A stretch of 64,000 nucleotides of DNA from Halopiger aswanensis (lineage in GTDB: Archaea; Halobacteriota; Halobacteria; Halobacteriales; Natrialbaceae), in assembly GCF_003610195.1 (NCBI RefSeq), contig NZ_RAPO01000002.1, positions 992,001 to 1,056,000 of the forward strand. The letters run 5' to 3'. Below the pieces are notes generated by a model. It worked only from the letters and a program-made list of their open reading frames with translations. It made no database searches and was not told where the DNA came from. The position numbers and the translations under genes were made by a program. Of the stretch, positions 31,811-63,212 are shown in pieces (position 1 is the stretch's first letter; each line of letters opens with the position of its first letter).

Positions 31811-32438
31811 TTCTATCACAATCCGTGTGATTTCACCCGTCAAACAGGGGTCAATTCGACGCAGAACGACACAGATCCAACGATCATTTCGACAGTCACC
31901 CCGTCTCAGCCTTGCATTTTCCCTCGTCAGCGTTCCCGGTTTCCTCGTCTCGTAATACTATCTAGGATAATATAAAGACCCGCGGCGTGAGCTTCAGGGT
32001 CTACATCTATAACACGTACCACCTGATCTACCGCTGTTTTCAGTCGGTCACGATCTCTCACGGATACGGAGGCGGATATCTAGATCGGACGTGAGCTGCT
32101 ACTGGGTTCGAAGCCCGATCTGGAACTGCTAACTGATCTCTGACTGGTGTTCCAGCCACGCTATTGGGACGCGACGATTGATCCGTCTTGAACTTATCCA
32201 ATGTGATGCATTGTATGGCGCAAGGCGACAGATAGAACACGAGAGACCACCGGCCGGCGGCGCGAGTCTCGTAACTGGATCGGACAACCGCGGCCACCTC
32301 GGGAACGACGACATTCCGGAGATTCGGTTGCCCGTCGACGGTGATAGGCGAGTGGAAATTAGCTGCGTCAAACGCGGCAGACGGAAGATACGGGTGATAT
32401 ATATCGAATACGCCGCGCTAGCATAATCGTTTCAGGAT
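31811..32438. other. Gene-poor island junction
   Basis: About 630 bases with no convincing gene; open frames here are short and lack family features. The stretch is a transition from the attachment site into the low-G+C island and may hold decayed sequence. Confidence 0.5.
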
Positions 32439-36715: not shown

Positions 36716-37195
36716 TCAGATCTCATCGAGGCTATACTGTCTTTCTCGTCCCGTGGTGTCTATTGTTCTGATGGTGAGGCCCGAGGTACCGAAGTCTTCT
36801 AACAGGTTTCGGCAGGAGTTGCAGATATCCACATGGCGTGTGTCGCTGTAGACTGCTACGTCTGAGACTTCGCTGGCTCCTTCTGAGAGGGCTTTGTAGA
36901 TAGCTACTCGGAGTGCATGCACTGTGTCTTGTTCGCTGGGAATCTCTAACTCGGCTCCTGAGTAGATACTGTTGCTGTCGGTGTAGACCGTTGCCCCATT
37001 GCTTTCGCCGCTGGTAGAGTTCTTCGCAGCTTCTTTCGCGGTTTCCCGAAGTTCTTCTCGCAGCTCTTCTGGTGTCCGGCCTGTCCCCTGTGTTGACGGT
37101 GGCTGGATATCGAGGTCGCTCGGCTCAACCTGCCGGACCTTGTACGGTGTCAGGATGGTATCTTCGTCGTCCAGTCGGGCTTGATAATCGGTCAT
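36716..37195 (-). CDS. Cytidine-deaminase-like protein lacking the catalytic Glu
   Basis: A 159-aa protein. The C-terminal half follows the cytidine deaminase pattern: VHALRVAIYKALSEG (H93) and ICNSCRNLLEDFG (C125, C128), three residues that could hold zinc. The standard HAE motif reads HAL, so the proton-shuttling Glu is Leu95 and catalysis is doubtful. The N-terminal 60 residues are polar and probably disordered. Its start overlaps the stop of the McrB-N-like gene upstream, placing it last in the six-gene helicase/DndD-like operon. It might bind a nucleotide or modified base rather than deaminate it (inference). Confidence 0.6.
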   Translation of the reverse strand: MTDYQARLDDEDTILTPYKVRQVEPSDLDIQPPSTQGTGRTPEELREELRETAKEAAKNSTSGESNGATVYTDSNSIYSGAELEIPSEQDTVHALRVAIYKALSEGASEVSDVAVYSDTRHVDICNSCRNLLEDFGTSGLTIRTIDTTGRERQYSLDEI

Positions 37196-37788
37196 AGTTC
37201 TATGAAGTTGCTTGATTCGATGTCTGTGTTGCCGGTGCTGTAGAGTTCGGTGAAGTCAGGGTCGTCGCGGTCGTAGACGAACTCTTCACAGAAGGCCTGA
37301 ATCAGTGTGTCTGCAGATGGATCCTCTACTTCGAACCCGTAGTCTCGGAAGAGGAATGCTGCGAGTGGTTCGACAGGAACCTGCTCGCCACTGCACAGGT
37401 GTTCTCTGGCGAGTTCGGCGTGATTGTCGAAGAGTTTCCAGCGGCTTTTGCGTCCGTCTTTTTCGAACTCTCCGACTTTCAGGAGTGGAGTTGTTGTCCG
37501 GAGTGACGAGGGTGCGTATGTCCCGGCCACGTTTTTGTTGAACCAGAGCTCGGTTTCCTCAAAGTCGTCGACGGTGAAGGGTACGAGGTATGGCTTTTTC
37601 CCGGACCTCATTTCGAAGTACTTGTCGAAGAAGTCGTTGTAGTTGAAGTCCAGATCGTCAAGCCGGTTTTCCATACCTGCTTCTTGTCGAAGGCAGAGGT
37701 ATCCGGGGAACAAGCGGTGGATCGGCAGATCGACCAAGTCCCAGAACGATTCACGGACCACATCGACATCGAGGATGTATTCAGGCAT
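37192..37788 (-). CDS. Stand-alone homologue of the McrB N-terminal (specificity) domain
   Basis: A 198-aa protein colinear over its whole length with residues 1-202 of the McrB at 43846-45444. Shared features are FWxLxDxxIHRxFPGYL near the start, FxYNDFFDxxF, KPYxxPF, PVExxAAFLxRD, and DPxAxxLxxAFxxEFxYD near the end. In McrB this region precedes the AAA+ motor and should recognise DNA. Here the motor is absent and the domain lies between the 146-aa and deaminase-like genes of the neighbouring operon. It may give the DndD-like/helicase machinery the same target recognition as McrBC, or compete with it. Confidence 0.75.
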   Translation of the reverse strand: MPEYILDVDVVRESFWDLVDLPIHRLFPGYLCLRQEAGMENRLDDLDFNYNDFFDKYFEMRSGKKPYLVPFTVDDFEETELWFNKNVAGTYAPSSLRTTTPLLKVGEFEKDGRKSRWKLFDNHAELAREHLCSGEQVPVEPLAAFLFRDYGFEVEDPSADTLIQAFCEEFVYDRDDPDFTELYSTGNTDIESSNFIEL

Positions 37789-42470: not shown

Positions 42471-42736
42471 TTATACTCTACAATGGCGGGAAGGTCCGAT
42501 AAGTGTATGGTTAGATTCTGTGGATTAGATGGAGTGAGCTGAGTGCAGATGATGTACTTTGTAGCTCTCGGTTATCCACTCCAAGTAACCAGCCTACTAA
42601 TTTCCACCAAGATGAGTTCTCAGAGAACTGACTCGGCCTGTATTACACTAAGCAGGACGATTGCCTGTAATCTAAGTCAACTACTTTCACTGGGGTTCCG
42701 GTGCGTTCAAGTGGTCGGTACTCAGTATTTCTTGTA
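42471..42736. promoter_or_regulatory. Divergent promoter region between the two restriction operons
   Basis: A 266-bp A+T-rich gap separates the start codons of the helicase (minus) and the methyltransferase (plus) genes. No gene is seen in it. It must hold both promoters and is the natural place for joint control, for example delaying restriction until methylation is established. I could not identify a clear operator. Confidence 0.45.
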
Positions 42737-43849
42737 ATGACTGAGAACGAGTCTGAGGATTCCGTTGTTCCATATCCGGATGCGGATCTTTCTGTTGAGA
42801 GGCCAACGATTCACGAAAGTGATGCAAGGGATGTCCCGCAAGAGGATGATTCTGTGGATATTATTTTTACATCGCCTCCGTATTGGCAGAAGCGTGACTA
42901 CGGTTTTGAGGACCAAATTGGGCAGGAAGAGACGCCCGAGGAGTTCATCGATACGTTGATTGATTGTATGGATGAGTGGAACCGGGTTTTGAAGCCGAAT
43001 GGTTCTCTATTCCTGAATATCGGTGACACGTACGATAACCGGAGTTTGGTTGGTATTCCCGAGATGCTAATGCAGGCTGCTCGTGAGAACGGGTGGCTTG
43101 TCCGGAATAAGATTCTGTGGGCGAAGCCGAGTGGGATGCCGGAGCCTGCTCCGAACAGGTTGGCAAATCGCCACGAGTACATTTTCCATTTCACCCGTAA
43201 CAACGAGTATTACTACGATCTGCACGCTTACTCGAAGGAGTACGGTAACGGCTCGAATCCTGGAGACATCTGGAACGTAGGTTTCGACCGGAATACTGGT
43301 GATCACTTGGCTCCTTTCCCGTCTGAGCTTCCGGAGCGTGCGTTGACGATGGCAGGTCCTCGTGCTGTATGCAGTGAGTGCGGTCAGCCGTTGGAGCGGA
43401 AGATGGTTCGTACGACGAAACTGGATGAGAGCAGAGATCAGGCTCGGCGTGCGATGGAGATCTACGAGGAGTCAGATCTGACTGAGGAGCATATCCGTGC
43501 TGTGCAGGCAGTCGGTATCTCTGATGCTGGTAAGGCGATGGAGATTCAGGATGGTACGGGCCGGAATGCTGACGATGTCCAAGAACTAGCTGATGAGGCG
43601 AAGGAAGTCCTCGGCGGGTATTTCCGTGAGTTCACGTTCCCGAAGAAGGAGACGGGCGGCTGGGAGGGCTGTGATTGTGATGCTCCTACGGAGCCTGGTG
43701 TTGCTATGGACCCGTTCATGGGTTCAGGCACGACCCTTCAGGCGGCGTTGAAGATGGGTTTGAACGCTGTCGGCGTGGACCTTGATCCTGTAGAGGATTT
43801 CCAGATGCCCATTCAGGCCAAGTCAAAGATCGAAAGTGAGTCTTCATGA
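42737..43849 (+). CDS. Beta-class DNA methyltransferase (m4C or m6A) coupled to McrBC
   Basis: A 370-aa SAM-dependent DNA methyltransferase. Catalytic motif IV TSPPYW is at residues 45-50 and SAM-binding motif I DPFMGSGTT at 325-333, the order of the beta class. SPPY favours N4-cytosine but does not exclude N6-adenine. An insert contains CSECGQP and later CDCDAP, possible zinc ligands, probably in the target-recognition region. The ATG at 42737 is preferred to an in-frame start at 42701. Its stop overlaps the McrB start (ATGA), so it is translated with the nuclease and probably protects host DNA. Confidence 0.88.
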   Translation: MTENESEDSVVPYPDADLSVERPTIHESDARDVPQEDDSVDIIFTSPPYWQKRDYGFEDQIGQEETPEEFIDTLIDCMDEWNRVLKPNGSLFLNIGDTYDNRSLVGIPEMLMQAARENGWLVRNKILWAKPSGMPEPAPNRLANRHEYIFHFTRNNEYYYDLHAYSKEYGNGSNPGDIWNVGFDRNTGDHLAPFPSELPERALTMAGPRAVCSECGQPLERKMVRTTKLDESRDQARRAMEIYEESDLTEEHIRAVQAVGISDAGKAMEIQDGTGRNADDVQELADEAKEVLGGYFREFTFPKKETGGWEGCDCDAPTEPGVAMDPFMGSGTTLQAALKMGLNAVGVDLDPVEDFQMPIQAKSKIESESS

Positions 43850-45444
43850 CGGAATACGTCCTGACCGAGGAAGCAGCCAGAGAAGCCTTCTGGGAGCTTA
43901 CTGACATCGAGATCCACCGCAGCTTTCCAGGGTACCTTGGGTTGAAGTGGGCCTCGTCGAAGGCTGGGACCACGGACGGCTTTCAGTTCGAGTACAACGA
44001 CTTCTTTGACACCTTTTTCAAGATCCGCGAGCAGGCGGTCGGGAAGCCTTACGTAATTCCGTTTAATCCAAATGAGGATCCCGATGCCGAAACCGAGAAC
44101 ATGTGGCTGCAGAACAACGCTGCTGGCTCCTACGGTCCTTCTTACAACGGTGTAACCTTCGGCAGTATGGTCGAAGATGTCTCTGGGCGTGCTACCAGTG
44201 CTGACTGGGAGTTGGTGGACGATTACTGGACAGTCGTCCGGGACGACATGCTGGAAGGAGACAGTATCCCGGTTGAGTTGGTGGCCGCATTTCTTCTTCG
44301 AGACTTCGTGATCGAGATGGACGACCCGGGTGCAGAAGGGCTTGTTGAAGCCTTCCAGGACGAGTTTGGGTACGACGAAAGCGATTCCGACTACAATGCA
44401 CTGTACCTGACCGATACTGGTCACATCGACGCTGACAATTTCGAGCAGTACGATTCATCGATGGGTAGCGGCTCCGGCACCGATGCTTCAACCAGTTCGA
44501 AATTGCAAGGGAAGGCGCGTGATATGGATCCTGCCGATCTCGGCCTTCTGGGGACTACGGGGCCGAGTCTTGACCTTGATGACATCGATATTGACGGCTT
44601 GAGCGACGACACCAGTTTCGACCGTGATGATGTCGAGGATTGGTTGATCGGTTTGAAGCGGAAGAAACAGGCCATCTTCTACGGGCCGCCAGGCACGGGC
44701 AAGACGTTCACTGCGAAGAAAATCGCGGATGAATTGGTGGAGGGTACTGATGGGTTCACTGATATCCTTCAGTTCCATCAGAACTACGAGTATGAGGACT
44801 TCATTCAGGGGATCCGACCATCGACGGATGGTAGCGATCTTTCGTATAGCTTGGAGAGCGGCACGTTCCTTGACTTCTGCGAAGAGGCAGGTGAACGGAG
44901 CAGTCCCTGTGTCTTGATTATCGACGAAATCAACCGGGCCGACCTCTCTGCTGTGTTTGGTGAGTTGATGTATCTCTTGGAGTATCGGGAGGACGATGTG
45001 CAGCTGGCGCAGAGCCAGGTCGATGAGGATGATTCGTACTTGGAGGAGAATGGTTTCGAGATTCCGGATAACGTCTACATCATCGGTACGATGAACACGG
45101 CAGACCGTTCCATCGCCTTGGTGGATTTCGCGTTGCGCCGGCGTTTCGCGTTCCTCAAGCTTCCTCCGAACTGGAGTGTATTGAGAGAGAAGTTCTCTGC
45201 TTCCGGTGTCGATGTCGACGACTTAGTCAATGTAATGGAATCCGTGAATGGTGATATCAATGATCAAAACTACGAGCTGGGGCACACGTACTTCTTAGAG
45301 GCCAGTGACCGGGATGAGGTCCGGAATATCTGGGAGCTGGAAATCGTGCCGTATCTCGAGGAGTTCTTCGTTGACCAGCAGAAGAAAGTAGATAACAACT
45401 ATACCTGGGACGAAATCACGTCTTCCAGCAGCTTCGATCTATAA
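43846..45444 (+). CDS. mcrB: McrB-family AAA+ GTPase
   Basis: A 532-aa McrB. Residues 1-202 are the DNA-recognition domain shared with the 198-aa protein at 37192, 205-265 a linker, then the AAA+ motor: Walker A GPPGTGKT (280-287), Walker B LIIDEINRA (357-365) and the McrB hallmark MNTADRS (416-422), followed by ALRRRFAF. It hydrolyses GTP to translocate DNA and drive McrC. Placed directly after a methyltransferase, which suggests the complex attacks DNA lacking, rather than carrying, its partner's methyl mark, as in LlaJI-like systems (inference). Confidence 0.92.
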   Translation: MTEYVLTEEAAREAFWELTDIEIHRSFPGYLGLKWASSKAGTTDGFQFEYNDFFDTFFKIREQAVGKPYVIPFNPNEDPDAETENMWLQNNAAGSYGPSYNGVTFGSMVEDVSGRATSADWELVDDYWTVVRDDMLEGDSIPVELVAAFLLRDFVIEMDDPGAEGLVEAFQDEFGYDESDSDYNALYLTDTGHIDADNFEQYDSSMGSGSGTDASTSSKLQGKARDMDPADLGLLGTTGPSLDLDDIDIDGLSDDTSFDRDDVEDWLIGLKRKKQAIFYGPPGTGKTFTAKKIADELVEGTDGFTDILQFHQNYEYEDFIQGIRPSTDGSDLSYSLESGTFLDFCEEAGERSSPCVLIIDEINRADLSAVFGELMYLLEYREDDVQLAQSQVDEDDSYLEENGFEIPDNVYIIGTMNTADRSIALVDFALRRRFAFLKLPPNWSVLREKFSASGVDVDDLVNVMESVNGDINDQNYELGHTYFLEASDRDEVRNIWELEIVPYLEEFFVDQQKKVDNNYTWDEITSSSSFDL

Positions 45445-45447
45445 TAG

Positions 45448-46662
45448 ATGTGTGCAGATTGGATTATCGAAGAGTACGATGATAAGTACATTCCTCAGTC
45501 GGAACTATCTGATACTGATATCCGGTACTTAGATGAAGAGCTTGACTCTGAACTGGAGTTAGAGGGGCCGTCCAGTTTGAATGACTGGAACTGGGTTATA
45601 TGGAACGATGGATATGTCGGCCACATCCAGCTGCCGGAGAACAGTTCTATCGAATTGAAGCCCGGTATCGACCTGGATAACGTGTTTGGGATGCTGGAGT
45701 ATGCGTATGATCTAAGCAAGTTTAACCTGGCGGAAGAGGGCCTATATGATTCGGAGTCGGTTCAGGACTTCTACGATAAGATTGCCAGCATCTTTGCCCA
45801 GAGTGTGAATAAGAGGCGGAAGCAGGGCTTGTTTCGGTCGTATCAGGATCGAGAGGAAGAGTCACAACGTATCCGGGGACGGATTGATTTCAGGAAGACG
45901 GCTCAGAGGCCGTGGGATCCGAAAGCTCATGTGAAGTATCGGGAGATGACTTCTGACAACGAGGATAATCAGATCCTGTTGTACACGTTGAACCGTATCT
46001 CTCGTTCTGATGTTCCCCGTGAGGATACGTTGGAGAAGGTTAGAAAGGGTGTCAGGTCGCTTCGAGGCAGTATCAGTTACCGCGAGTTTGAGCCGAGTGA
46101 CTGTGTGGGTCGCCGGTATAACCGTTTGAATCAGGATTATCAGCGTATGCACGCTTTGGCCCGGTTGATTTTAGATACGAGCGGGCCTTCTCACGAAGAG
46201 GGGGATGCGGATATGATTCCGTACACTGTGTATATGCCGGATTTGTACGAGTTGTTCGTTGCGAGGTGGTTAAATGAGAACTTGCCGACCGGGTACAGTG
46301 TTGATACTCAGAAGCACGAAGATCTCGGTGATACAGGATTGTTTTATAGGATTGACGTGGTCTTGAATGATGATCGAACCGGTGAGACGGTGGCTGTGCT
46401 TGATACGAAGTACAGGGAGCCGGATAACGAGAGTCCGGATACCAGTGAGGTGAATCAGGTGCTGGGGTATGCGAAGAAAATGGAGACAGACAAGGCGTTC
46501 CTGGTATACCCGGCTGAGCTAGATAATTCGTTCCCGTTGCAGCTTGATGACGTGGATATTCACTGCATCAAGTTTGCTTTGGAGGATGGTCTGGAGAGAA
46601 ATGGCCGTGAGTTCTTGACGGATCTTTCCAGTGTTCTTGGCCGTCCAGACTTACTGAGTTAG
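45448..46662 (+). CDS. mcrC: McrC-family PD-(D/E)xK nuclease
   Basis: A 404-aa McrC. The N-terminal part contacts McrB. The C-terminal nuclease core is readable: YRIDVVLNDD, VAVLDTKYR (D-x-K) and NQVLGYAKKM, the PD-(D/E)xK order. It begins 3 nt after the mcrB stop and completes the MTase-McrB-McrC operon. Length is normal for the family. Confidence 0.92.
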   Translation: MCADWIIEEYDDKYIPQSELSDTDIRYLDEELDSELELEGPSSLNDWNWVIWNDGYVGHIQLPENSSIELKPGIDLDNVFGMLEYAYDLSKFNLAEEGLYDSESVQDFYDKIASIFAQSVNKRRKQGLFRSYQDREEESQRIRGRIDFRKTAQRPWDPKAHVKYREMTSDNEDNQILLYTLNRISRSDVPREDTLEKVRKGVRSLRGSISYREFEPSDCVGRRYNRLNQDYQRMHALARLILDTSGPSHEEGDADMIPYTVYMPDLYELFVARWLNENLPTGYSVDTQKHEDLGDTGLFYRIDVVLNDDRTGETVAVLDTKYREPDNESPDTSEVNQVLGYAKKMETDKAFLVYPAELDNSFPLQLDDVDIHCIKFALEDGLERNGREFLTDLSSVLGRPDLLS

Positions 46663-49994: not shown

Positions 49995-51038
49995 ATGAGC
50001 GAAGATCAACTGGAGTCGATCCACCCCACAGAGGCGTTTGAGCTGTATCTTGATGAGCGACGTTCCGAGGTCACTCCAAACACGCTTCAGGCGCATAGAT
50101 ACCGTATCAGGCATTTTCTCCGGTGGTGCGAGAAAGAGGATATCACCGACTTGAATGAGTTGACGGGGCGGCAGCTACATGAGTACAAGGTTTGGCGGCG
50201 GAAGGAAGGCGATTTGAACAATGTTACTGTGAAGACGCAGATGGACACTCTCCGTGTCTTCATCAAGTTCTGCGAGTCAATCGACGCAGTCCCCTCTAAT
50301 CTGCATGAGAAGGTGCTGTCTCCGAAACTTAACCGGGGAGACAACCAGAGTAACGATATCCTCAGAGAAGAGGAGGCACACAGCCTCTTGGACTATCTCT
50401 ACCGGTTCGAATACGCATCCTTTCCCCATGTCTTGATCCGTCTTCTCTGGACCACAGGAATGCGGATCGGGGCGGCTTATTCACTTGATATCGAGGACTA
50501 CCACAGCGATGACCGATTTCTCGAGATCCGTCACCGAGAATCAACTCCGTTGAAAAACAAGGAGGAGGGAGAACGTCTCGTCGCATTAGATCCGGAAACC
50601 TGTGAAGTCCTCAGTGACTGGATCAACCATCAGCGGCCAAGTTCTCAGGACGATGAAGGACGAGAGCCTTTGTTGGCAACCGTTTATGGACGCGCCCATA
50701 AGAACACGCTTCGAAAGACCGTCTACCAATGGACCCGGCCGTGTGAATACACCGGGACTTGCCCTCACGGAAGGGGTCTCGGTGAATGTGAAGCCTTGAA
50801 CGATAACCAGAAGTCGCCGAGCCTCTGCCCATCCTCAGTTGCACCGCACGCGATCCGCCGGGGTTCTATCACCTACCACCTCACAAAAAATGTTCTAGCC
50901 GAGGTCGTCAGCAACCGGATGAACGTCAGTCAGAAAGTCCTGGATATACATTACGATAAGAGGAGTGAAGAAACGAAGATGGAGCAGCGGCGGCGGTACT
51001 TGGAGGATCGGCCATCAACACGGTTCCGCCGCCACTGA
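49995..51038 (+). CDS. Tyrosine recombinase (XerC/D-like integrase)
   Basis: A 347-aa integrase. The N-terminal SAM-like core-binding domain (residues 10-105) is followed by the catalytic domain with Arg157 (TTGMRIG), His285-x-x-Arg288 (HAIRRG) and the nucleophile Tyr320 (DIHYDKR). An insert of about 40 residues with three cysteines (CEYTGTCPHGRGLGEC) precedes the HxxR box, a feature of haloarchaeal element integrases. Intact, so the element may still be mobile. Confidence 0.9.
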   Translation: MSEDQLESIHPTEAFELYLDERRSEVTPNTLQAHRYRIRHFLRWCEKEDITDLNELTGRQLHEYKVWRRKEGDLNNVTVKTQMDTLRVFIKFCESIDAVPSNLHEKVLSPKLNRGDNQSNDILREEEAHSLLDYLYRFEYASFPHVLIRLLWTTGMRIGAAYSLDIEDYHSDDRFLEIRHRESTPLKNKEEGERLVALDPETCEVLSDWINHQRPSSQDDEGREPLLATVYGRAHKNTLRKTVYQWTRPCEYTGTCPHGRGLGECEALNDNQKSPSLCPSSVAPHAIRRGSITYHLTKNVLAEVVSNRMNVSQKVLDIHYDKRSEETKMEQRRRYLEDRPSTRFRRH

Positions 51039-51430: not shown

Positions 51431-52708
51431 TCAGATCCCAACGGAATCAGTTCCCATATTTTCTCCATTCGACTGTGTAAATGCGTCTAATTGATCGAGA
51501 ACTCCTTTCTCCTCGAGTTCGGCGAGGCGTTCCAAAGTTTCGAGTTTCTCCTCACGCGTCGACTGGTTCTCAAGCGAAAGCGGTCTTCCACAGGTCCTAC
51601 ACTCTGTCTCCTCTGACTGGTTCTCGGTTCCGCAGAAGCTGCAGTTCACGGGTTGACTTTCGTCTTCCTCGCCACTGATACCGTACTGGTCTCTAATAGC
51701 TTGGTTGACGTCGTCGTTGTTGAGGTGGACATACACTTTGGCCCTGTCCGAACCAGGTTTCCATCCGGCGAACTTGTTCAGTTGCTCGTAACCCATGAAG
51801 GTCGCCACTTCCGTCAAACGTGTGTGTCGAAGGTTGTACGGGCGGCGTTTGTTCTCCGGGATATCGACTCTTTCACAGGCGTCCTGAAACCGTCGGAGGA
51901 AACTGTCGTACTTCCATCTCTCACACCGATCGGGTTCGTACAGACATTCGGTGTCGCCGTGTTTCTGGGGGAGCTCCCCGCATTTCTTGCATTCCTGTTG
52001 CTGTGTCTTCACCCATAATGGTGTAGATGGATCCTGTATGTCGCCTACTTCGCCGCCTAACGGGTGTTGTGCGATCCACTCTCTGAGAGGTCTTCCGCTT
52101 CTAACGAGTTGGTTGGTCCTGTCAGGAGTGCCCTTGATCCCTTCTAGGTGGATGAAGTCGCCTTTCCCGTTGGAAGTGAAGTCTCCAATGTTCCTTGAGA
52201 GCAGTTCGCCTGGCCGTGCCGCACTTTCGTACAGCACCATTGTGAACGCCCGGTCACGAGTGTTGATGAACCCGCTGAAAAGCCGTTTCAGTTCTTCTTT
52301 GGTGAAGAGGTCTTCTCTTGAGATGGTGGTCGTCTCTTTGGCGGTAGCGTCGAAGAAATCGACCTTCTCCGGGTGCTCTCTTCCACCGTTCTCGACCTTG
52401 TAGAACTTCTTCGTGGCGGCCTTCATCGTGTGTTTCGTGGACTCGGCGTAGTCACTTCTGTTCAGTTCGGCGACTGCCCGTTTCAAGTCCTGTTCCGAAG
52501 CACCGCGAAGTTCGAAGTTGTCGGGTGCGAAGTTGAGCACCAGTGATTTGAGGGCGGTGATCAAACGGCTTTGACGGACTTCGCTGAGGCCTTCTGCGGC
52601 GCAGTGATCGATGAAGCATCGTATCGCTTCGACGTTAGCCGGTTTAAGGTCAGAGTCTTCCAGGTTTTCCAGTTGCGTCTTGACGTTGATGTACCGTTCT
52701 GTAGACAT
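51431..52708 (-). CDS. Tyrosine recombinase with C-terminal zinc ribbon
   Basis: A 425-aa recombinase. Catalytic residues are Arg165 (AARPGEL), R294-H295-x-R297 (LRHTRL), Trp316 (AGWKPG) and Tyr326 (KVYVHL). A CxxC...C insert sits before the HxxR box, and a zinc ribbon (CSFCGTENQ ... CRTCGRPL) follows the catalytic domain, then a short coiled coil. The ATG at 52708 is chosen over an extension to 52840, because the SAM-like domain begins there. This is a different lineage from the integrase at 49995, pointing to more than one element. Confidence 0.88.
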   Translation of the reverse strand: MSTERYINVKTQLENLEDSDLKPANVEAIRCFIDHCAAEGLSEVRQSRLITALKSLVLNFAPDNFELRGASEQDLKRAVAELNRSDYAESTKHTMKAATKKFYKVENGGREHPEKVDFFDATAKETTTISREDLFTKEELKRLFSGFINTRDRAFTMVLYESAARPGELLSRNIGDFTSNGKGDFIHLEGIKGTPDRTNQLVRSGRPLREWIAQHPLGGEVGDIQDPSTPLWVKTQQQECKKCGELPQKHGDTECLYEPDRCERWKYDSFLRRFQDACERVDIPENKRRPYNLRHTRLTEVATFMGYEQLNKFAGWKPGSDRAKVYVHLNNDDVNQAIRDQYGISGEEDESQPVNCSFCGTENQSEETECRTCGRPLSLENQSTREEKLETLERLAELEEKGVLDQLDAFTQSNGENMGTDSVGI

Positions 52709-53100
52709 AGTCTTCGTACCTCTGTCGAAGAAAAGGAAGGCCGGGGAGACACCACGGTTCAAATGTATAGGTTGTTCTGGAAGGGCAGTGAACCCTCTGT
52801 CAACTGTTCCAGTACCCGGTGTTTCTCTTGGGGTTTCCACCCCTAGTCACGTTTGAAGGACAGTGAACCCTTGATAGGTAGTTCGGACGGGGCTACCTCT
52901 TATCCGTTCACCGTCTCCTATTCAAGTGTTATCCGGCTCTCCTTCTTTCGTTTGGTTTTCAAGAGAAATATTGTCGTCCAAGATTCAAATATGGTTATTC
53001 AGTGTACTATACCTATCTAAGTACGTCTCAAAGATAGTGAAAGAATAGAATTTTAAGGGTTTCTTCCTTCAGCATTGACTGAACGGGCTGAAGGTCGTAG
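52709..53100. other. Gene-free region with a 16-bp direct repeat upstream of the recombinase
   Basis: About 390 bases without a gene. Aagggcagtgaaccct at 52781-52796 recurs with one change at 52856-52871 (75-bp period), just upstream of the recombinase start. Direct repeats here could be recombinase arm-binding or operator sites (inference). The rest is A+T-rich. Confidence 0.45.
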
Positions 53101-54954
53101 ATGAAACTAGAGAAACTTCGGATCAGGAATTTCAGGTCGTACAAGGACTCCCAGGTCGTAAGTGTCGGAAATAAGCTGGTTCTGGTTGGGGAGAACAATG
53201 CGGGGAAATCGAATGTTCTCCGGGCTTTGGACATGTTCTTCGATATCAGTCCTACGTCTCCGCATACGGTAGAAGACTTCCATATGAAAGACACTGAGGA
53301 GGATATTGAGATTGAAGCCTGGTTTGAAGATCTGTCTGAGGAGGAAAAAGAGGTGTTTGATGAGTTCTTAGTGGATGATCGTCTATGGGTGAAGACGGTA
53401 TATCCGTTTGACGATGAAGGTGGTGTTGCTGAAAACAAGCAGTTTGTTGTGAAGAAGGAGGTTCCGGCAGAAGAAGACTTCCGAGGGTATGACGATATAA
53501 CTGCTGATGAGGCAGAAGAGATCTACAAACGGCATGAAGAGAAGCTTCAGCCACATCAGGTAGAGGATTGGAGTGGGAATCTGTATAAGAATGAGATCCA
53601 GCCAACGATAGGGAAATACCTTGAATCGGATGATGCAGAATGGGAAAACGAGGAGGTAGTGGATCCGAGAGGTATCAAAAAGAAGCTTAAAGCACATCTC
53701 CCTGAGTTCGAGTACTTTGAATCAGATAGGAACATTGAGGATGCAACTAAGACGAGTACGAGTGCTCTACTTGGAAAGCTTCTGGATGATGCTCTTGATT
53801 CCGTTTCTGACGAGGAAAAGAGCGAGATCGAGGATGCCTTAGAAGATGTCGATGAAAAACTCAATCAAGAGGATAAGTTTGATCAGATCAAGGACTTGGA
53901 GTCGGAGCTACAGGAGAAGCTGTCTGAACACGTCCCTGTTGACAATGTAAATCTCGAGATTGATGTTCCTGACTTAGACTCGATCCTCTCGAGGGTCAAC
54001 GTCTCGATCGACGACGGTGTCAAAACTGATATCACCACGATGGGTTCTGGCCTCCATACTTCTTTCATCCTGGCTTGTCTCTGGCAGATAAACGAGGGAG
54101 ATACCGGCGATAAGGATATCATCTTCGGGCTGGAGGAACCGGAGAACGATCTTCACCCACATGCGCAACGCCAGCTCTACGATACTTTAGATGACTTAGC
54201 AGAACAGGACTACCAAGTCGTGCTCTCGACCCATTCCGCATTCCTCGTAAGTTCCGAGGATCTGTTTGATACAGTCCGGGTTGAGAAGCCAAGTAATGAA
54301 TCCCAGCTTCACTCTATTGACACCGACTCTTTCGATGAACAGGAGATGGATAAAATCCGGAGTAAGATAACGCCGGACAACAATGAGGTATTCTTCTCAC
54401 GTGCGGTCCTCCTCTGTGAAGGCCAGTCAGAACTCCAGGCCCTTCCTGTATTGAACTCGTTGGTAGATGGTGTGAAAGACGATGTCTACGCGTTCGACCG
54501 GTTAGGGATCTCGCTGATAGAGGTCAACGGTAAGATCGGTTTTAAGAATTTCTTGAAGGTCACAGACATGTTCAATATTCAGTCGATAGTGCTGGTGGAT
54601 AATGACCGGGAGAAGGATGAGGGACATGAAGAGCTGATCGAGGAACTCGAGGAGAAGGCAGACGAACTCGTTGAACTCCCTCTTGACTTTGAGGAACAGT
54701 TCTTCAGCTCGATCACATTCGAGCAGTTCTGTACTGCGATGAGTAGGATCTCTAACTACGATACGACGGCTGACAACCTATCTACAAGGCAGGAAAACAC
54801 CGGGGAATCCAGACAGGAGATCCTAAGAAGTGAGTTCGAAAAAGAGCAGCCTTCAAAACCCCAGTTAGGACGTACATTGGCGAAAGAAGTCTCCGAGGAC
54901 GAGGTACCTGAAGAGATCGTCCACGTGTTCAAGCAGTGTAAAGAGATAGTGTAG
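53101..54954 (+). CDS. OLD-family ATP-dependent nuclease (AAA+/TOPRIM)
   Basis: A 617-aa protein. The ABC-type ATPase half has Walker A GENNAGKS (near residues 30-37), signature-like MGSGLHTSF and Walker B FGLEEPENDLHP. The C-terminal TOPRIM nuclease has LLCEGQSELQALP (catalytic Glu) and VLVDNDRE (DxD). It should nick or degrade DNA in an ATP-regulated way and is linked to phage exclusion. No UvrD-like gajB gene is adjacent, so it is a stand-alone class 1-like OLD rather than a Gabija pair. Confidence 0.9.
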   Translation: MKLEKLRIRNFRSYKDSQVVSVGNKLVLVGENNAGKSNVLRALDMFFDISPTSPHTVEDFHMKDTEEDIEIEAWFEDLSEEEKEVFDEFLVDDRLWVKTVYPFDDEGGVAENKQFVVKKEVPAEEDFRGYDDITADEAEEIYKRHEEKLQPHQVEDWSGNLYKNEIQPTIGKYLESDDAEWENEEVVDPRGIKKKLKAHLPEFEYFESDRNIEDATKTSTSALLGKLLDDALDSVSDEEKSEIEDALEDVDEKLNQEDKFDQIKDLESELQEKLSEHVPVDNVNLEIDVPDLDSILSRVNVSIDDGVKTDITTMGSGLHTSFILACLWQINEGDTGDKDIIFGLEEPENDLHPHAQRQLYDTLDDLAEQDYQVVLSTHSAFLVSSEDLFDTVRVEKPSNESQLHSIDTDSFDEQEMDKIRSKITPDNNEVFFSRAVLLCEGQSELQALPVLNSLVDGVKDDVYAFDRLGISLIEVNGKIGFKNFLKVTDMFNIQSIVLVDNDREKDEGHEELIEELEEKADELVELPLDFEEQFFSSITFEQFCTAMSRISNYDTTADNLSTRQENTGESRQEILRSEFEKEQPSKPQLGRTLAKEVSEDEVPEEIVHVFKQCKEIV

Positions 54955-55311: not shown

Positions 55312-57372
55312 CTACGGCCACTTCTCAAGAGCATCGGAAACGTCCTGTACCAAGTGAAACACGACCTGGTCCGGATCAATCCCTGTCTCTTTGAAACGTT
55401 GCTTCAAACCATCCCGTACTTTTTCTGTCCGGCATACGACCCAGATCACGTCAAATCTGGTTTCAAGATGTTTCTCTACGTGTTCCTGTTCTCTCTGAGT
55501 GTTCTCCATCGCAATCTCGATAGCGACTTCGAACCGGCCTGTGTTCACGTAGACGTCAGCATCGAATAGCTCAAGTTTTGTGGCCCATCCCGCTTTCTCG
55601 AACGCCTTCTTGACCTGATGCTGCCAATACCGGTGAACAATACCACCTCTCCCCTCATGGCTTGAATCAAGATCAAGCTGGTCTTCGACGTAGGTACGTC
55701 CTCTGTCGGTTAATTCCAGAAGTTTTCGAGCACCTGTCCTTGTTTCGAGAGAGCGTTCTGTGACCAGGCCTGTCTCTACCAGTTCAGATTTGGCCTTGTT
55801 ACCTTTGTACCGGCTCGAGAACGTTTCGTATCTTTCAGTCAACGGGATGAACGGCTCCTCAACAACTCCTTCCAATAACTGTTCCGCCTCCTCAGAGACT
55901 GTGACCTTCGACGGTGGATCGTCGATAACCTCAGGCTCTTCCGAATCCCTACTTTCGGACTGAACGGTCTCTTCGAACCGTGGCGGTTGTTTCCGAGGTT
56001 TAGCTGAAAGCGAGTTCCAGAACTGTCCCTGGTTTCTCTGTAGATCAGTGTCTGTAACCGTTTTCTCCAGTCGGTACTCATCGAGTATCACCCGTTCGGG
56101 TTCATCGTTTCCTGTCTGGATGACTGCTTCCCCGGTACCGAGGTCTTTGGCAGCGTTTGCTTGCCGCTGAGTAAGATTCATTGAGTCCGCGACCGCTGTG
56201 AACTGCTTCCGGTCACCTGTAGAGAGAAGGATCTTAGTGTAGGTGTTGGCCTTGATTGAATCGGTCAGCTTGGATGCTTCCTGATCTGCCACGATCAGTC
56301 CTTCCCCGAACTCCCTCATCTTGGCAGTCAGTTCGTCGACGGCCGGGATACCGGATTCAGATTGTCTCTCCTTGTAGACACTGAAGATTTGCTTGGCCTC
56401 GTCGAGGACGAACACGTGGTTGAGATCTTCCGTTCGGTGTATCTGTGTGAGCCGGTACTCGTAGACGGCTGCCAACAAGATATCCATTAGGAAGTTCTGT
56501 GTATCGCGGCTTAACCCGTCGAACTCGAACACGACGTTTCGCTCAAGAAGATCTTCGAACGTGTAACCTTCACTGCAGTCAAAGATGGTTCCAGCTCCCA
56601 GGTTCATCGCTTCTATTCGGTTGAGGACTGTGTCCCGGTAGTTCGAGGTCTTCCGCATATAGTTGATGTAGTCAGAGGTGAGGAACTGCTCGAGTTCATG
56701 GAAGCTGGGATACGGCGGTGATTTCTCCTCAAACAAGTTGTACAACCGGTAGAGTTTGAGAATGGATTTCAAGAGATGGTTTTTCGATCCGGATAGGAGG
56801 GCGGTGGCGTGGCCGAATATCTCGCTGACAACCTGAGCCCACCGCCGTGGCTGCACGCCTGGGGGTGGAACCAACGGATTATACTTGAGTTCGGTCCACG
56901 GCAACACCAGTACATCATTTCTGTCCTTGACGAGATGGCGGTAGTCCTTCTTGAGATCGAAACACCAGAACGGGACATCCAGTTGGGAGAGAAGATTGTA
57001 GAATAAGGTTGTTTTCCCGGAACCCGACTGACCGATAGCCAGGAGATGTTTCGAAAGCAGTGATTCACTGAGGTCATAGGATCGTCCAGAAACCGTCGTC
57101 CCAATTTGGATCGTCTCCGAAATCGGAGGACCGACTGTATTCGAGGTGTTGAACGGGTGTGACCGATGGTGTGCTAACGTGGCTGCAAGTGCTTTCCGAC
57201 CCTGTTTCTGAAGCGGTTCCGGGGCAAGGATGTTGTATAGTGCCAGCCGTCGAATACGTGGATCCGATAGCTCGTCATCCTCGAGCATCCAGAGAAGAGA
57301 AGTCCGATCTCTAGAAAGGGAGGACATACATTCAACATAGTAGGGTAGGGTTCGAAATATGCTTGTAGACAC
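55312..57372 (-). CDS. HerA/TraG-like DNA-translocase ATPase with C-terminal extension
   Basis: A 686-aa ATPase. Walker A GQSGSGKTTLFYNLL is near residues 113-127 and Walker B HVFVLDEAKQIF near 317-328; VPFWCFDLKKDYRHL follows the motor pattern of HerA/VirD4 proteins. After about residue 480 come a winged-helix-like part and a domain (ADVYVNTGRFEVAIEIAME ... VIWVVCRTE) resembling nuclease-fold extensions seen in haloarchaeal conjugation-type ATPases. It probably pumps DNA in transfer of the element. A shorter start at 57327 is possible. Confidence 0.8.
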   Translation of the reverse strand: MSTSIFRTLPYYVECMSSLSRDRTSLLWMLEDDELSDPRIRRLALYNILAPEPLQKQGRKALAATLAHHRSHPFNTSNTVGPPISETIQIGTTVSGRSYDLSESLLSKHLLAIGQSGSGKTTLFYNLLSQLDVPFWCFDLKKDYRHLVKDRNDVLVLPWTELKYNPLVPPPGVQPRRWAQVVSEIFGHATALLSGSKNHLLKSILKLYRLYNLFEEKSPPYPSFHELEQFLTSDYINYMRKTSNYRDTVLNRIEAMNLGAGTIFDCSEGYTFEDLLERNVVFEFDGLSRDTQNFLMDILLAAVYEYRLTQIHRTEDLNHVFVLDEAKQIFSVYKERQSESGIPAVDELTAKMREFGEGLIVADQEASKLTDSIKANTYTKILLSTGDRKQFTAVADSMNLTQRQANAAKDLGTGEAVIQTGNDEPERVILDEYRLEKTVTDTDLQRNQGQFWNSLSAKPRKQPPRFEETVQSESRDSEEPEVIDDPPSKVTVSEEAEQLLEGVVEEPFIPLTERYETFSSRYKGNKAKSELVETGLVTERSLETRTGARKLLELTDRGRTYVEDQLDLDSSHEGRGGIVHRYWQHQVKKAFEKAGWATKLELFDADVYVNTGRFEVAIEIAMENTQREQEHVEKHLETRFDVIWVVCRTEKVRDGLKQRFKETGIDPDQVVFHLVQDVSDALEKWP

Positions 57373-57627: not shown

Positions 57628-59070
57628 TTATATTAAATTACAGGTAGTCGTTCGTGTCTCGCTATCTCTCTCATCTTTGTGTGCCGTCAGTTGTTTCTCC
57701 ACCTCCTCGAATTGTCCCAGAACGTGTTGCGGATGGAGAGGTTTCTCGTGCAGGTGATACTCTCGAATGCGACCATCCCGTCCAGTCCGCTGGGTACCTG
57801 GGTAGAAGAGCACTCCGTCACCACCGATATTGGGATCAATCAGGTCAACTGCGTAGCCGAGTACTTGTCGCACGTCCGAAACACTCGGCGCATCCTTGTA
57901 TTTTGCGTCGCCGACCCAGATCGTCTCGCCGTCGTAGTCAATAACGAAATCGGGATCGCCGACACTCCGGCCGAGGTTTGGTTCGAAGTATCGACTCGTA
58001 AAAGGAGTCGAGACGTCCGACCCAGAGACCCCGTTTGGACGATTCGGAGATTGGTTGTAGTGGACCGTGTAGTCGCCAATTGAGTACGCACCAGCGATTT
58101 CGCCGATATTCGGTTCGACCCCCTCGATATCGGCGACGCTCTCGAGGAGTCGGCGAAGAACCCACACCTCATAGACCTTCGACATCGGCTTGACGGCAGT
58201 GTCGTAGTGATCGGTGAACGCAAGCTCTAGGTTGATGTTCTGAAGGAACGATTCCCAGAGATCGATGATGAGCATGAAGTCCTCGTCAGCACCACGCCGT
58301 GCCTCATCTATCGTCTCGATCGTCGTTAGTGGCTCGTCCAGTCCTTTCTCCAGTAGTCGATCGAAGAGAGGCTTGTCGAGAACACTCCGATGGTAGGCAA
58401 GACGGTCTCCCAGTAGGTCCATGTAGTACTGGTGTTGCTGGGTGAGTCGACGCAGTTCTCTCGCGAGTACCGCGTGAAAGCGGACGAGAATAAGGTTCTC
58501 CAATGAGTCGAGACGGAACTCCGTCCGTTGGGAAACGATCTGGTTAGACTGGCGTGCCTGCTCACGTAGTGTTTCTTGGATCCGGACGCGCCCCCTGGGC
58601 TCTGGATGTCGTTCTGTCCGCTGCTCGACGTCGACGGGAAGCCGGTGTGAGAGAACTTGGTCCGTCTGTGTTTGGAGTGCGTTGCTGTAGGGTCCAAGGC
58701 GTGCTTTTTGATCCAAGAGGAGATCCGGGGAGAACTGAAACGCCGCCGTGATCGTGTCCGGGCCAAGTATTTCTGACCAATCCTGAACCTCCGTGATCAG
58801 CGTTTCAAACGCATCGTCGTCGAAGTGCTCCGGTTTCACGACGACGCCTGGAGCGAACTCGCCGACCCAACCCCCAGGCTCAAACAGGTCTCCCCGTATC
58901 GATGGTGGTCCTTCTTCAAGCTCCTCGATCGAGCTCGCGTACTCTTCGCTAACGACGTCTTCAATATGTGCAACCCGATCACGAAGCTGCTGCTCGTCTT
59001 CGTCATCGAGGTCGAGGTCCGATACCGGATATGAGTGAAACGTGATATAGTCGCGGTCGTTCCCGCTCAT
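57628..59070 (-). CDS. McrC-like PD-(D/E)xK nuclease (system 2)
   Basis: A 480-aa protein with the McrC/LlaJI-type nuclease core GDPDFVIDYDGETIWVGDAKYKD and VRQVLGYAVDL near residues 385-420. The N-terminal 370 residues are mostly helical and should contact its McrB. Its start overlaps the stop of the 968-aa McrB by 4 nt. Differs clearly from McrC at 45448, so this is an independent system. Confidence 0.88.
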   Translation of the reverse strand: MSGNDRDYITFHSYPVSDLDLDDEDEQQLRDRVAHIEDVVSEEYASSIEELEEGPPSIRGDLFEPGGWVGEFAPGVVVKPEHFDDDAFETLITEVQDWSEILGPDTITAAFQFSPDLLLDQKARLGPYSNALQTQTDQVLSHRLPVDVEQRTERHPEPRGRVRIQETLREQARQSNQIVSQRTEFRLDSLENLILVRFHAVLARELRRLTQQHQYYMDLLGDRLAYHRSVLDKPLFDRLLEKGLDEPLTTIETIDEARRGADEDFMLIIDLWESFLQNINLELAFTDHYDTAVKPMSKVYEVWVLRRLLESVADIEGVEPNIGEIAGAYSIGDYTVHYNQSPNRPNGVSGSDVSTPFTSRYFEPNLGRSVGDPDFVIDYDGETIWVGDAKYKDAPSVSDVRQVLGYAVDLIDPNIGGDGVLFYPGTQRTGRDGRIREYHLHEKPLHPQHVLGQFEEVEKQLTAHKDERDSETRTTTCNLI

Positions 59071-61973
59071 TCCAGAATACTGTTGCTGTCCTTGGCGTCT
59101 TTCAGCGCTTGGGCCGTCTTTTGGAGGCCTAACTCGGCAGCGATACCGACCGCGTTTGTGTAATGTTCGGCTAACTCTTCGTTCTCACCAAGCGTCTCAG
59201 CCCGGCGGAGATCACTGAGGACATGCTCGAACTGTGGAACAATATACGCACGGGCGGCTCGGTCGACGACGTCGGCATCAGTTTCACCAGGGAACAGTAG
59301 TTCATGTGCGAGAACAAATGTCACAGCATCCATAATGACGGCCTGTCCGAGTTCGAGGACAGCGTGCTTGTCGACGTACCGAGCGAAGGCGACCAATGAC
59401 TCAATGAAATCCTCGCCTTCGAGATCGAGACCGCCCTCAGTTACCGCTCTGAGGGCTTCATCGATCCGTTCAGGGACTGCAAGCTGTGGAAAAATCGTAA
59501 CTTCATCCGGAGCCTCGGTGAGTACCCGATCGTCAACTGCTGTTCGCTCGACTCGAGCTCGCGCGACATCCGCAATCGTAGATCGGACTTCCCCGTCGTC
59601 GACGAGTGACAGCGCATCGTGTGCGGTAACCCCTGCAGTGTCGATATCGCTCAGATCGATCGTCGTTGCGTTCGAGAGGAGGGACGGAACGCGGACAAAT
59701 GCGAACCGGCGTCGAAACGCATACCCGAGGGAAAAGAGTTGTGCGAGGTCATGTGTGTTCATCGTCGCAAGAATTCGGAAGGAAAGCGGGACGTACTGGT
59801 CCTTGCCGGCATACGTGATCGGGAGATCTGACCGATAATCGAGATCGAGAAGAGTGAACACATCGCCAAACGCCTGATCGAGATTTGCCCGGTTTAGTTC
59901 GTCGATAATGAGCCAGGCCGGTCGACCCTCTGTCTTAAGATGTGACTCGCAATCCTGTACTGCGCTTGTGAGAATACCTGGTTCCGGTTCCCAGAGACGA
60001 TCACCATCATCCGAGATTGTTGGTTGAAGACCGCCGGCGATCTCATAATTTGTCCATTCCGCGTTCGCAGTCGCCAACGCGAAGTCATCTTCCGAGCCGC
60101 AAACGAGTTTGCTCAGCTGTTTTGCAGTGTGAGTTTTTCCTGTTCCTGGGGGGCCGTACAGTGCTAGGTTCCGACCGGCAACTAGGTGGACAAGTGCTTC
60201 TTTATATAGATCGGGTCGGTCAGTTTCGTCAATTTCAGCTAGCGTCTCTTCTAGGGGGCCGTCGTGCCACTGAAGAATTAGTCGTAGATCTTGTGGCGTT
60301 ACTTTGTGGATTCCCGGGCCATTTAGTAGACCGTTCTTGCTCAGGTACGGTTCGATGACATCGAATGGGATTGGCGGAAATCTTTCGAACTCGTCAATTT
60401 TCGCATAATAATCGGTCGTCGAGTCATCTTCATCTCGGGATTCTTCTCGAATCGTCTCGATTGTTCCGACACTATCGAAGATCCGCTGTCCAGCACTATC
60501 TTTCCGAAGATAAACGAAGGTTGTTCCCGCCCCAGCAGACTCAAGCTGACTGTATCCCGGTATTCCGGATTCAAAGTGATAAATTTCATCAAGTGTGTCT
60601 TCGTATTCTCCGCCCTCTGGAAGGAGAACGAAGCACTGGTCTTCGGGGAGGTCATAATCAGATATCGCTGAGACACCTGGGTTTTTCTGTGGAGCCGGGA
60701 GATCACCCTCAGAAACGTCGTATTTCACTTCTGGATCCGAGAATTCCTTGTCTGGGAAAATTGCCTCGAGGACCGTCTTTCCGCCACCCGCTTCTTTGAT
60801 TGGGAACGGATTGAATTGGTTGAACATCCCCGCAGCGCTATCGAACAGAAGCGGTTCCCCATCGAGGTTTAGCGTATCTGTCAGCTGACCTTCGATCGAT
60901 GACCAGTCCTCATCCGGTTGGTGGATTTCCGCACTTGAGATCCAGAGTCCGCTAAACGAACTATTTCCAGCGATCTCCTCCGCGATGTTACTCCGGATGT
61001 TTTCGGGTAGATATCCTAGCGAGTGATCGACACGTTGGATGTATTCAATCGTGCCGGAGACATCGTGAAGCACCCAGTCACCGCGATCGAGGACAGCATA
61101 CTCTTCGACGTGTTGTCCTTTTGTGCCCCATAGTGTCGTGTTTTCACTCTCCAATAGCTGCAACGCTTCTGATTTGACGTTTGGCGCCTTCAGTAAGTGT
61201 TCTCGAATCGTCTCACGTTGGTCCGATGATAGTGATTGTCCAACCGTCTTGTCGAGATTGTCCTTGAAGGCTCCCTTTCCGCCTGCATTTCTGAAGAGAT
61301 TCGTTGTCTGGATTGGAGATCGTTTGTCTGTTTCGTACGATGAGTATCCTAGATGACGTGCAACCGCTTCTTTTTCTATCCGTTCGATATCTCTTTCAAG
61401 ATAACTCGCCGAAGGATCGCTCACATCATCGGTATGACTGAGGATTGCGGATCGATAGTCCGGATACTTTTCAGTTCGATTTACAAGCCCAGTGTGTCCA
61501 CTGACGACTGTAACACCGGTTGTCTCTACATCGATGCCTTCCCTTTCACCGTCGAATGTCAAATCGAGCCAGCCTACCCAACGATAGTGGGTGTCTGAGG
61601 AATCTCCAATAGATGGGTTTTTCTCAAATTCATACTCGGAGCGTACGACACCGAACCCCTTCAGGAAATTGCTTCCATTCGCGATAAGGATATCCCCCTC
61701 CTCTACTCTTGAAGCGAATTGGAACAGCAGTCGTCCCTTATCGTTTCCACTACTCTCAATTCCGCATTGCGTACGTACTTCCTTGACCGATTCAACACCC
61801 TGTAGATCTTGTTCACAGCCGGAGAAGCCGATTCGGATTTGGCCGGCATCCCGCAGCGTTGGCCACATCCCATCGTCACCGATTGTATATACTGATACTC
61901 CAGCGTCGTCCAGTGGCTCGTCAGGCATTGATTTTTCTAATACAGTGAGCTTACATTTATTTTCCCCCATCAA
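59067..61973 (-). CDS. Large McrB-like AAA+ protein with several N-terminal reader-like domains
   Basis: A 968-aa protein. The motor has Walker A YGPPGTGKT (606-614), Walker B LIIDELNRA (688-696) and MNT at 738-740 followed by HDLAQL instead of ADRS. Ahead of it are three modules resembling small PUA/EVE-type folds: residues 36-139 (IRIGF, EEGDILIANG, FGVVRSEYEF), 281-350 (WGTKGQHVEEYAVLDRGDWVL, segments) and 446-508 (CFVLLPEGG ... FVYLRK). Such readers recognise modified bases in type IV restriction. The fold calls are by pattern only. Coupled to the McrC-like gene downstream; no methyltransferase is adjacent. Confidence 0.88.
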   Translation of the reverse strand: MMGENKCKLTVLEKSMPDEPLDDAGVSVYTIGDDGMWPTLRDAGQIRIGFSGCEQDLQGVESVKEVRTQCGIESSGNDKGRLLFQFASRVEEGDILIANGSNFLKGFGVVRSEYEFEKNPSIGDSSDTHYRWVGWLDLTFDGEREGIDVETTGVTVVSGHTGLVNRTEKYPDYRSAILSHTDDVSDPSASYLERDIERIEKEAVARHLGYSSYETDKRSPIQTTNLFRNAGGKGAFKDNLDKTVGQSLSSDQRETIREHLLKAPNVKSEALQLLESENTTLWGTKGQHVEEYAVLDRGDWVLHDVSGTIEYIQRVDHSLGYLPENIRSNIAEEIAGNSSFSGLWISSAEIHQPDEDWSSIEGQLTDTLNLDGEPLLFDSAAGMFNQFNPFPIKEAGGGKTVLEAIFPDKEFSDPEVKYDVSEGDLPAPQKNPGVSAISDYDLPEDQCFVLLPEGGEYEDTLDEIYHFESGIPGYSQLESAGAGTTFVYLRKDSAGQRIFDSVGTIETIREESRDEDDSTTDYYAKIDEFERFPPIPFDVIEPYLSKNGLLNGPGIHKVTPQDLRLILQWHDGPLEETLAEIDETDRPDLYKEALVHLVAGRNLALYGPPGTGKTHTAKQLSKLVCGSEDDFALATANAEWTNYEIAGGLQPTISDDGDRLWEPEPGILTSAVQDCESHLKTEGRPAWLIIDELNRANLDQAFGDVFTLLDLDYRSDLPITYAGKDQYVPLSFRILATMNTHDLAQLFSLGYAFRRRFAFVRVPSLLSNATTIDLSDIDTAGVTAHDALSLVDDGEVRSTIADVARARVERTAVDDRVLTEAPDEVTIFPQLAVPERIDEALRAVTEGGLDLEGEDFIESLVAFARYVDKHAVLELGQAVIMDAVTFVLAHELLFPGETDADVVDRAARAYIVPQFEHVLSDLRRAETLGENEELAEHYTNAVGIAAELGLQKTAQALKDAKDSNSILE

Positions 61974-62411: not shown

Positions 62412-63191
62412 TTACTGCTGGAGCGACTGAAGGAGTGACTGTTGGCACTTAGACTTCTGTCTCCATGACTTGATCTGTCGTTTCATACTGAGGTAGTGGT
62501 AGACTTGTTGACGCCAGGTCTGTCGAGGTTCTCGCATCCGTGTCCGGAAGTCGTAGGCAGCTGAATCAGCGGAGTCCAGAGACTCGATGACCCGTGGAAG
62601 TTGGAGAGTATCTGTTCCGATACCGAAGGCATGTAACCTGTGTTTGGAGGAGAGGGCGTTTCGGATTTTATGGATGATCTGAGCTGCTGTCTCCGGGTTC
62701 CGGTTACTGAGTGAGCCAATTGCCACATACTGTGTAAGTACGCCTTCTTCCCGGAGCTCATCGAGATGAGAAAGGTACTGTTCCGGTTTCCATCCCTGGA
62801 GAACAGCGACCGGCTCAGAACCGATATCGGCGTTGTTGTACGTATCAAGCAGTTTTCTGTGGTGACGGGTGGTCCTCTGCTGATGATCTCTAACGGTTCG
62901 GTTGAGCTTCCATAGGAGTCCGGGTTCACACGGGTAATCCCTGAGAGCGAACAGCTCCGGCTCATATTCCTTAAGGTACGAGAGATACTGCCTATCGGAG
63001 GACTGGTACTCTCGGTGAGTGTGGAGCTGGCTGTAGCCGCCTGAATCAGTGAAGAGGTTCTCGATCGTCTGGAACGGCGTATTGTTCGCTGTGGCGTGGC
63101 TGATCATCACATTTGGTTCTTCCATCTTCCTCAGTGCTTTCCGGGCGCTGCCTGAGGCACAGCCGTAGTAGAACCGGAACTCATCGGCCAT
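62412..63191 (-). CDS. DpdA-like tRNA-guanine-transglycosylase paralogue
   Basis: A 259-aa protein with TGT-family features: FTDSGGYSQL at residues 48-57 (the DSGG motif with the catalytic Asp49), VLQGWKPEQYLSHLDEL near 130-146, YVAIGSLSNRN near 155-165 and HAFGIGT near 187-193. DpdA proteins insert 7-deazaguanine bases into DNA; tRNA TGTs are about 400-500 aa, so this shorter protein fits the DpdA side. No other dpd gene is nearby, so its activity is uncertain. The ATG at 63191 is preferred to 63203. Confidence 0.75.
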   Translation of the reverse strand: MADEFRFYYGCASGSARKALRKMEEPNVMISHATANNTPFQTIENLFTDSGGYSQLHTHREYQSSDRQYLSYLKEYEPELFALRDYPCEPGLLWKLNRTVRDHQQRTTRHHRKLLDTYNNADIGSEPVAVLQGWKPEQYLSHLDELREEGVLTQYVAIGSLSNRNPETAAQIIHKIRNALSSKHRLHAFGIGTDTLQLPRVIESLDSADSAAYDFRTRMREPRQTWRQQVYHYLSMKRQIKSWRQKSKCQQSLLQSLQQ

Positions 63192-63212
63192 AGACGTGGT
63201 CACCGTCGCCGT

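Follow-up and report, generated by a model that had tools for sequence, protein, structure and literature searches.

Three separately mobile N-terminal modules, candidate readers of modified bases, on a haloarchaeal McrB

The window, a 64-kb stretch of the Halopiger aswanensis genome, carries an mcrB-like gene and an adjoining mcrC-like gene (Table 1). The mcrB-like gene has an in-frame ATG at 61928 (residue 16) at the position where homologues start, which makes a protein of 953 aa the likelier product. Residues are numbered here with the TTG as 1, while structure models carry ATG numbering, which is 15 less.

Table 1. Positions of the mcrBC-like genes and of the segments of the McrB-like protein within the window.
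Feature	Coordinates	Strand	Residues	Remarks
mcrB-like gene	59067..61973	-		single intact ORF; 968 aa from TTG
mcrC-like gene	57628..59070	-		PD...DAK nuclease motif; 4 bp overlap with mcrB
M1	61404..61910	-	22-190	probable PUA/EVE-superfamily reader
M2	60693..61361	-	205-427	predicted YTH-like reader of TgMcrB type; core 222-369
M3	60249..60656	-	440-575	predicted EVE-like reader
McrB AAA+ motor	59070..60242	-	578-968	GPPGTGKT, LIIDELNRA, NTHD (NxxD)

The C-terminal part of the McrB-like protein matched AAA_5 (PF07728) at residues 603-757 (E 1.6e-17), and its nearest solved structures were McrB proteins, the best being E. coli McrB (6hz4, E 4.7e-16). With Walker A, Walker B and the NxxD signature (Asn 739) all present in the AAA_5 domain, the motor belongs to the NxxD branch of McrB. 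The initial annotation had singled out the sensor motif MNTHDLAQL as a departure from MNTADRS. Because MNTHDLAQL retains NxxD, we attach no special meaning to this departure and dropped the motif as a novelty; MNTxD followed by YAFxRRF is the usual form among haloarchaeal McrBs, and sensor motifs of the MNTHDLAQL and MNTADRS types both occur within the window. The adjoining McrC-like protein matched PF10117 (DUF2357) marginally, at 24.1 bits against a cut-off of 23.9, and has a PD-(D/E)xK nuclease motif, as expected of an McrBC pair. This motif, G-x-PD...W-x-x-DAK, is kept across five McrC homologues, and the adjacency of mcrB and mcrC is kept in four other haloarchaea (L042-L045).

The genes lie in a large island of low GC content. 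GC drops from ~66% to 51% near position 32000 and stays low through 64000 and on to about G000:C2:1088000 (L009/L010). The island contains two tyrosine recombinases (49995-51038 and 51431-52840), together with Orc1/Cdc6-like genes and HerA/TraG-like ATPases, and carries several defence genes. An OLD-family ATPase-TOPRIM nuclease lies at 53101-54954 (PADLOC Old 6e-71, GajA 1.5e-54). It also holds a second, canonical McrBC pair at 42701-46662 (McrB 43846-45444, with MNTADRS; McrC 45448-46662, PF10117 8e-39), which immediately follows an N6/N4 DNA methyltransferase and has a ResIII helicase close by. An ORF of 198 aa at 37192-37788 resembles the N-terminus of this second McrB (E about 5e-46) without the motor and is either a free-standing or a truncated reader domain. 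Upstream of the mcrB-like gene, on the same strand, is a DpdA/TGT-like gene at 62412-63203 (PF23859 1.8e-16; phrog_1279 7e-23), whose product might mark island DNA with 7-deazaguanine. Downstream of mcrC lies a HerA-like ATPase at 55312-57372 (PADLOC mad8 1.2e-22, HerA 3.4e-12) with weak winged-helix matches near its C-terminus. A link of the McrB to either the DpdA or the HerA neighbour was rejected, since neither is conserved beside related McrBs.

Full-length relatives of the McrB-like protein are few. A search of 149 related genomes yielded two, from Natronolimnohabitans innermongolicus and Halovivax asiaticus, and a third (G264) came from a wider genome sample. A scan of genome contigs recovered only the same two, and relatives were not found in viral contigs scanned with the N-terminus and the module alignments.

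No Pfam family covers residues 1-580 of the McrB-like protein. Three pieces of this region, at residues ~22-190 (M1), 205-427 (M2) and 440-575 (M3), nevertheless each match other proteins separately. That each recurs on its own is the best argument for regarding them as real domains. On these sequence matches, the first 580 residues consist of three modules that move separately. The initial annotation had proposed three PUA/EVE-like segments at residues 36-139, 281-350 and 446-508, which fall within M1, M2 and M3, respectively. That proposal holds for M2 and M3, on both sequence and model, and becomes a probable one for M1, for which profile links to EVE are weak and the AlphaFold2 (AF2) model has a pLDDT of 39.5. 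A single non-PUA fold spanning the whole N-terminus was not seen. Profile links were controlled by column shuffles; AF2 models were built from three sequences, and mean pLDDT was 49 for the N-terminal model and 39.5 for M1 alone.

The M2 profile, from a family of eight full-length members, aligned in hhalign with the N-terminal domains (A7) of short haloarchaeal McrBs of ~520-550 aa at 96.8% (E 2.8e-10), with a score of 69.3 against a maximum of 19.8 over 60 column shuffles. The A7 family in turn matches the McrB of Thermococcus gammatolerans (TgMcrB; PDB 6p0f, E 2.4e-5). The M2 part of the AF2 model, in which pLDDT rises to 82 (overall 49), superimposed on 6p0f with Z 9.7 and rmsd 3.9 (131 aligned residues, 18% identity; model residues 207-354, ATG numbering). 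By this model and by a sequence link that is transitive via A7, M2 is a homologue of the TgMcrB YTH-like reader and, by analogy, a candidate m6A-type reader. At residue 282, the Trp of its WG-K motif, seven of the eight members have W and the remaining one has F. A glucose dehydrogenase (L120) and McrC C-termini also surfaced as M2 relatives and were dropped as drift of the iterated M2 profile.

The M3 part of the same AF2 model (pLDDT about 60-69) matched 2eve with Z 10.6 and rmsd 3.2 over 122 residues and the THYN1-DNA complex 5j3e with Z 10.3. In hhalign, M3 aligned with EVE at 59.6% (E 8.9e-5; score 31.9 against a shuffle maximum of 18.7). Pfam EVE (PF01878) gave weak matches in three of 16 M3 relatives, the best at 6e-4, and no match in the M3 of the target itself; we therefore call the module EVE-like rather than EVE. 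M3 is thus predicted to have the EVE/PUA fold, in a model of moderate confidence, and by analogy is a candidate reader of modified cytosine. The module is also found as free proteins of 140-150 aa. McrB-borne copies do not have the YFW Trp of these stand-alone relatives (the target has CFVLL), and M3, or M1, may be degenerate.

A Pfam scan of M1 returned no match, and Foldseek/VIA searches with its low-confidence AF2 model gave low-score matches only. The M1 profile did match a subfamily fused to a NucS-type nuclease at 98.7% (E 4.5e-16). The profile of this subfamily matched EVE at 40% and M3 at 71%, and one of its members matched Pfam EVE at 8.6e-4. The link to M3 is weak, because shuffles reached 27.5 against a score of 34.9. 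The sole PDB profile matches of M1 were to cupins, plant seed-storage proteins among them, at E >= 0.006, and these were taken as chance. Among 391 sampled Halobacteria genomes, 54 contain M1, several of them in the form of a 336-aa M1-Mrr_cat protein. The module recurs in other McrBs; five haloarchaeal proteins that were checked join it to Mrr_cat, and one carries a divergent copy fused to NucS_C. These fusions appear to place M1 in the position expected for the DNA reader of a restriction nuclease. From its profile links, M1 is probably a PUA/EVE-type reader.

To place the protein among its relatives, 59 haloarchaeal McrB-like proteins were picked by similarity to the motor domain of the target, a non-random sample, and their modules were recognised by six reader profiles. 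Most (41) carry one recognisable reader; eight have none (one of these bears a DCD domain), five have two, three have three and two have four, so that ten have at least two. Those with three are the target and two orthologues of it; those with four are L109 and L110. Multi-reader McrBs are thus an established minority pattern in haloarchaea and not a one-off. Size does not set the target apart, as the description of it as a giant McrB had implied, since the median length in this census was 948 aa and 28 of the 59 proteins have at least 953 aa.

In a tree of the motor domains, the M1-M2-M3 proteins group together (95/95) and adjoin M2-only proteins; deep joins were flagged as long branches and left out of interpretation. 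Sister McrBs of the target clade carry either M2 alone (L097, L045) or a DCD domain, while all three modules turn up on distant McrB clades as well. This distribution indicates that the modules have been exchanged, and, as far as sequence comparison can tell, haloarchaea swap them between McrB motors and nucleases. One sister McrB (L044:8002-10848, in G099) has a DCD (Dev_Cell_Death) match at 1.5e-8 and a start that by eye resembles an Mre11-type phosphoesterase. Another McrB of the same genome (L095:5375-10165, 1596 aa) has M2 at ~320-560 and winged-helix matches at its N-terminus.

Parts of this arrangement are known from characterised or described systems. McrBC of T. gammatolerans (6p0f/6p0g) shares the NxxD McrB motor and an N-terminal PUA-superfamily reader (for m6A in TgMcrB), of which M2 is a detectable relative. 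It has one reader, whereas here M1 and M3 flank M2, and M2 additionally has a C-terminal extension (about 370-427) relative to TgMcrB. Among the defence fusions of EVE, that with McrB occurs most often, frequently with additional domains (Bell et al. 2020, PMC7641849). Our protein shares with these fusions the EVE-type module on McrB and the presence of extra domains, but its M3 is divergent, is missed by Pfam in the target and is joined with a YTH-like module and M1. The ~1220-aa haloarchaeal McrBs L109 and L110 also combine M1, M3-type and EVE modules, up to four readers, on an McrB motor; unlike the target they are without M2 and belong to another McrB clade. VcaM4I EVE-HNH and the Mrr/NucS-type fusions follow the same logic of reader plus nuclease, with M1 fused to Mrr_cat, but are single polypeptides without an AAA+ motor. 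Likewise, E. coli McrBC pairs an McrB motor with an McrC nuclease, but its reader is DUF3578/ADAM rather than PUA-type, and the McrC here matches PF10117 marginally.

We consider it likely that the locus encodes a Type IV restriction system in which carrying three modules broadens the set of modified bases, or of sequence contexts, that can be sensed, any one of them being able to trigger cleavage. McrB forms an NTP-driven ring that is activated by McrC (PMC11090510). In a ring presumed to be hexameric, every subunit would bear M1-M3 at its N-terminus, and the modules would bind flipped-out modified bases when DNA of a virus or plasmid enters the cell. A single bound module would suffice for ring loading, and NTP hydrolysis would then allow McrC to cut. 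The EVE domain of VcaM4I flips 5mC/5hmC and the YTH domain of TgMcrB senses 6mA, the modified base going into a pocket (PMC7897488). By analogy, these preferences of characterised readers are a guide to the ligands of M3 (5mC/5hmC) and M2 (m6A), albeit a suggestive one only. In a stronger form, all three modules would be working readers, M2 of adenine, M3 of cytosine and M1 of a third, perhaps unknown modification, such that one system screens for several at once. We regard this full version as doubtful; if it were true, M1 would be a new and widespread haloarchaeal family of modified-base readers.

It is somewhat less doubtful that one module only, most likely M2 or M3, reads a modified base while the others contribute non-specific DNA binding, sequence context or protein contacts, in which case the enzyme would not sense several modifications. 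The M2-only McrBs of the sister clade retain the same motor, the absence of the YFW Trp from McrB-borne M3 points in the same direction, and a single recognisable reader is what most of the sampled McrBs have. Against it, M1 and M3 each retain conserved motifs, and each also occurs either next to a nuclease domain, with no other partner recognised, or by itself in a protein of 140-150 aa, which suits an autonomous reader. The modules could instead act jointly, by AND logic or avidity, so that several modified sites or mixed modifications are required and the sparse marks of the host are guarded. E. coli McrBC is known to require two modified sites (repeated in PMC13385129), and a subunit with several modules would make more contacts, but module content differs between close McrBs, and we think joint action rather unlikely.

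Modified RNA has been proposed as the target of the CoCoNuT branches of McrBC; that it, and not DNA, is the target here appears highly improbable. EVE and YTH domains are also known to bind RNA, and CoCoNuTs are McrB relatives (PMC11090510). However, the motor here has NxxD and not the NxD that defines CoCoNuTs, which moreover are almost missing from archaea (PMC11090510). The PD...DAK motif is retained in McrC, and the fusion partners of M1 are DNA restriction nucleases.

The main interest of the locus lies in M1, which may be an uncharacterised family of modified-base readers, together with the shuffling of modules. Restriction of modified DNA limits haloarchaeal transformation, so readers of this kind matter in practice. 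Viruses evade restriction through DNA modification, and several swappable detectors on one host enzyme would be a natural counter-move.
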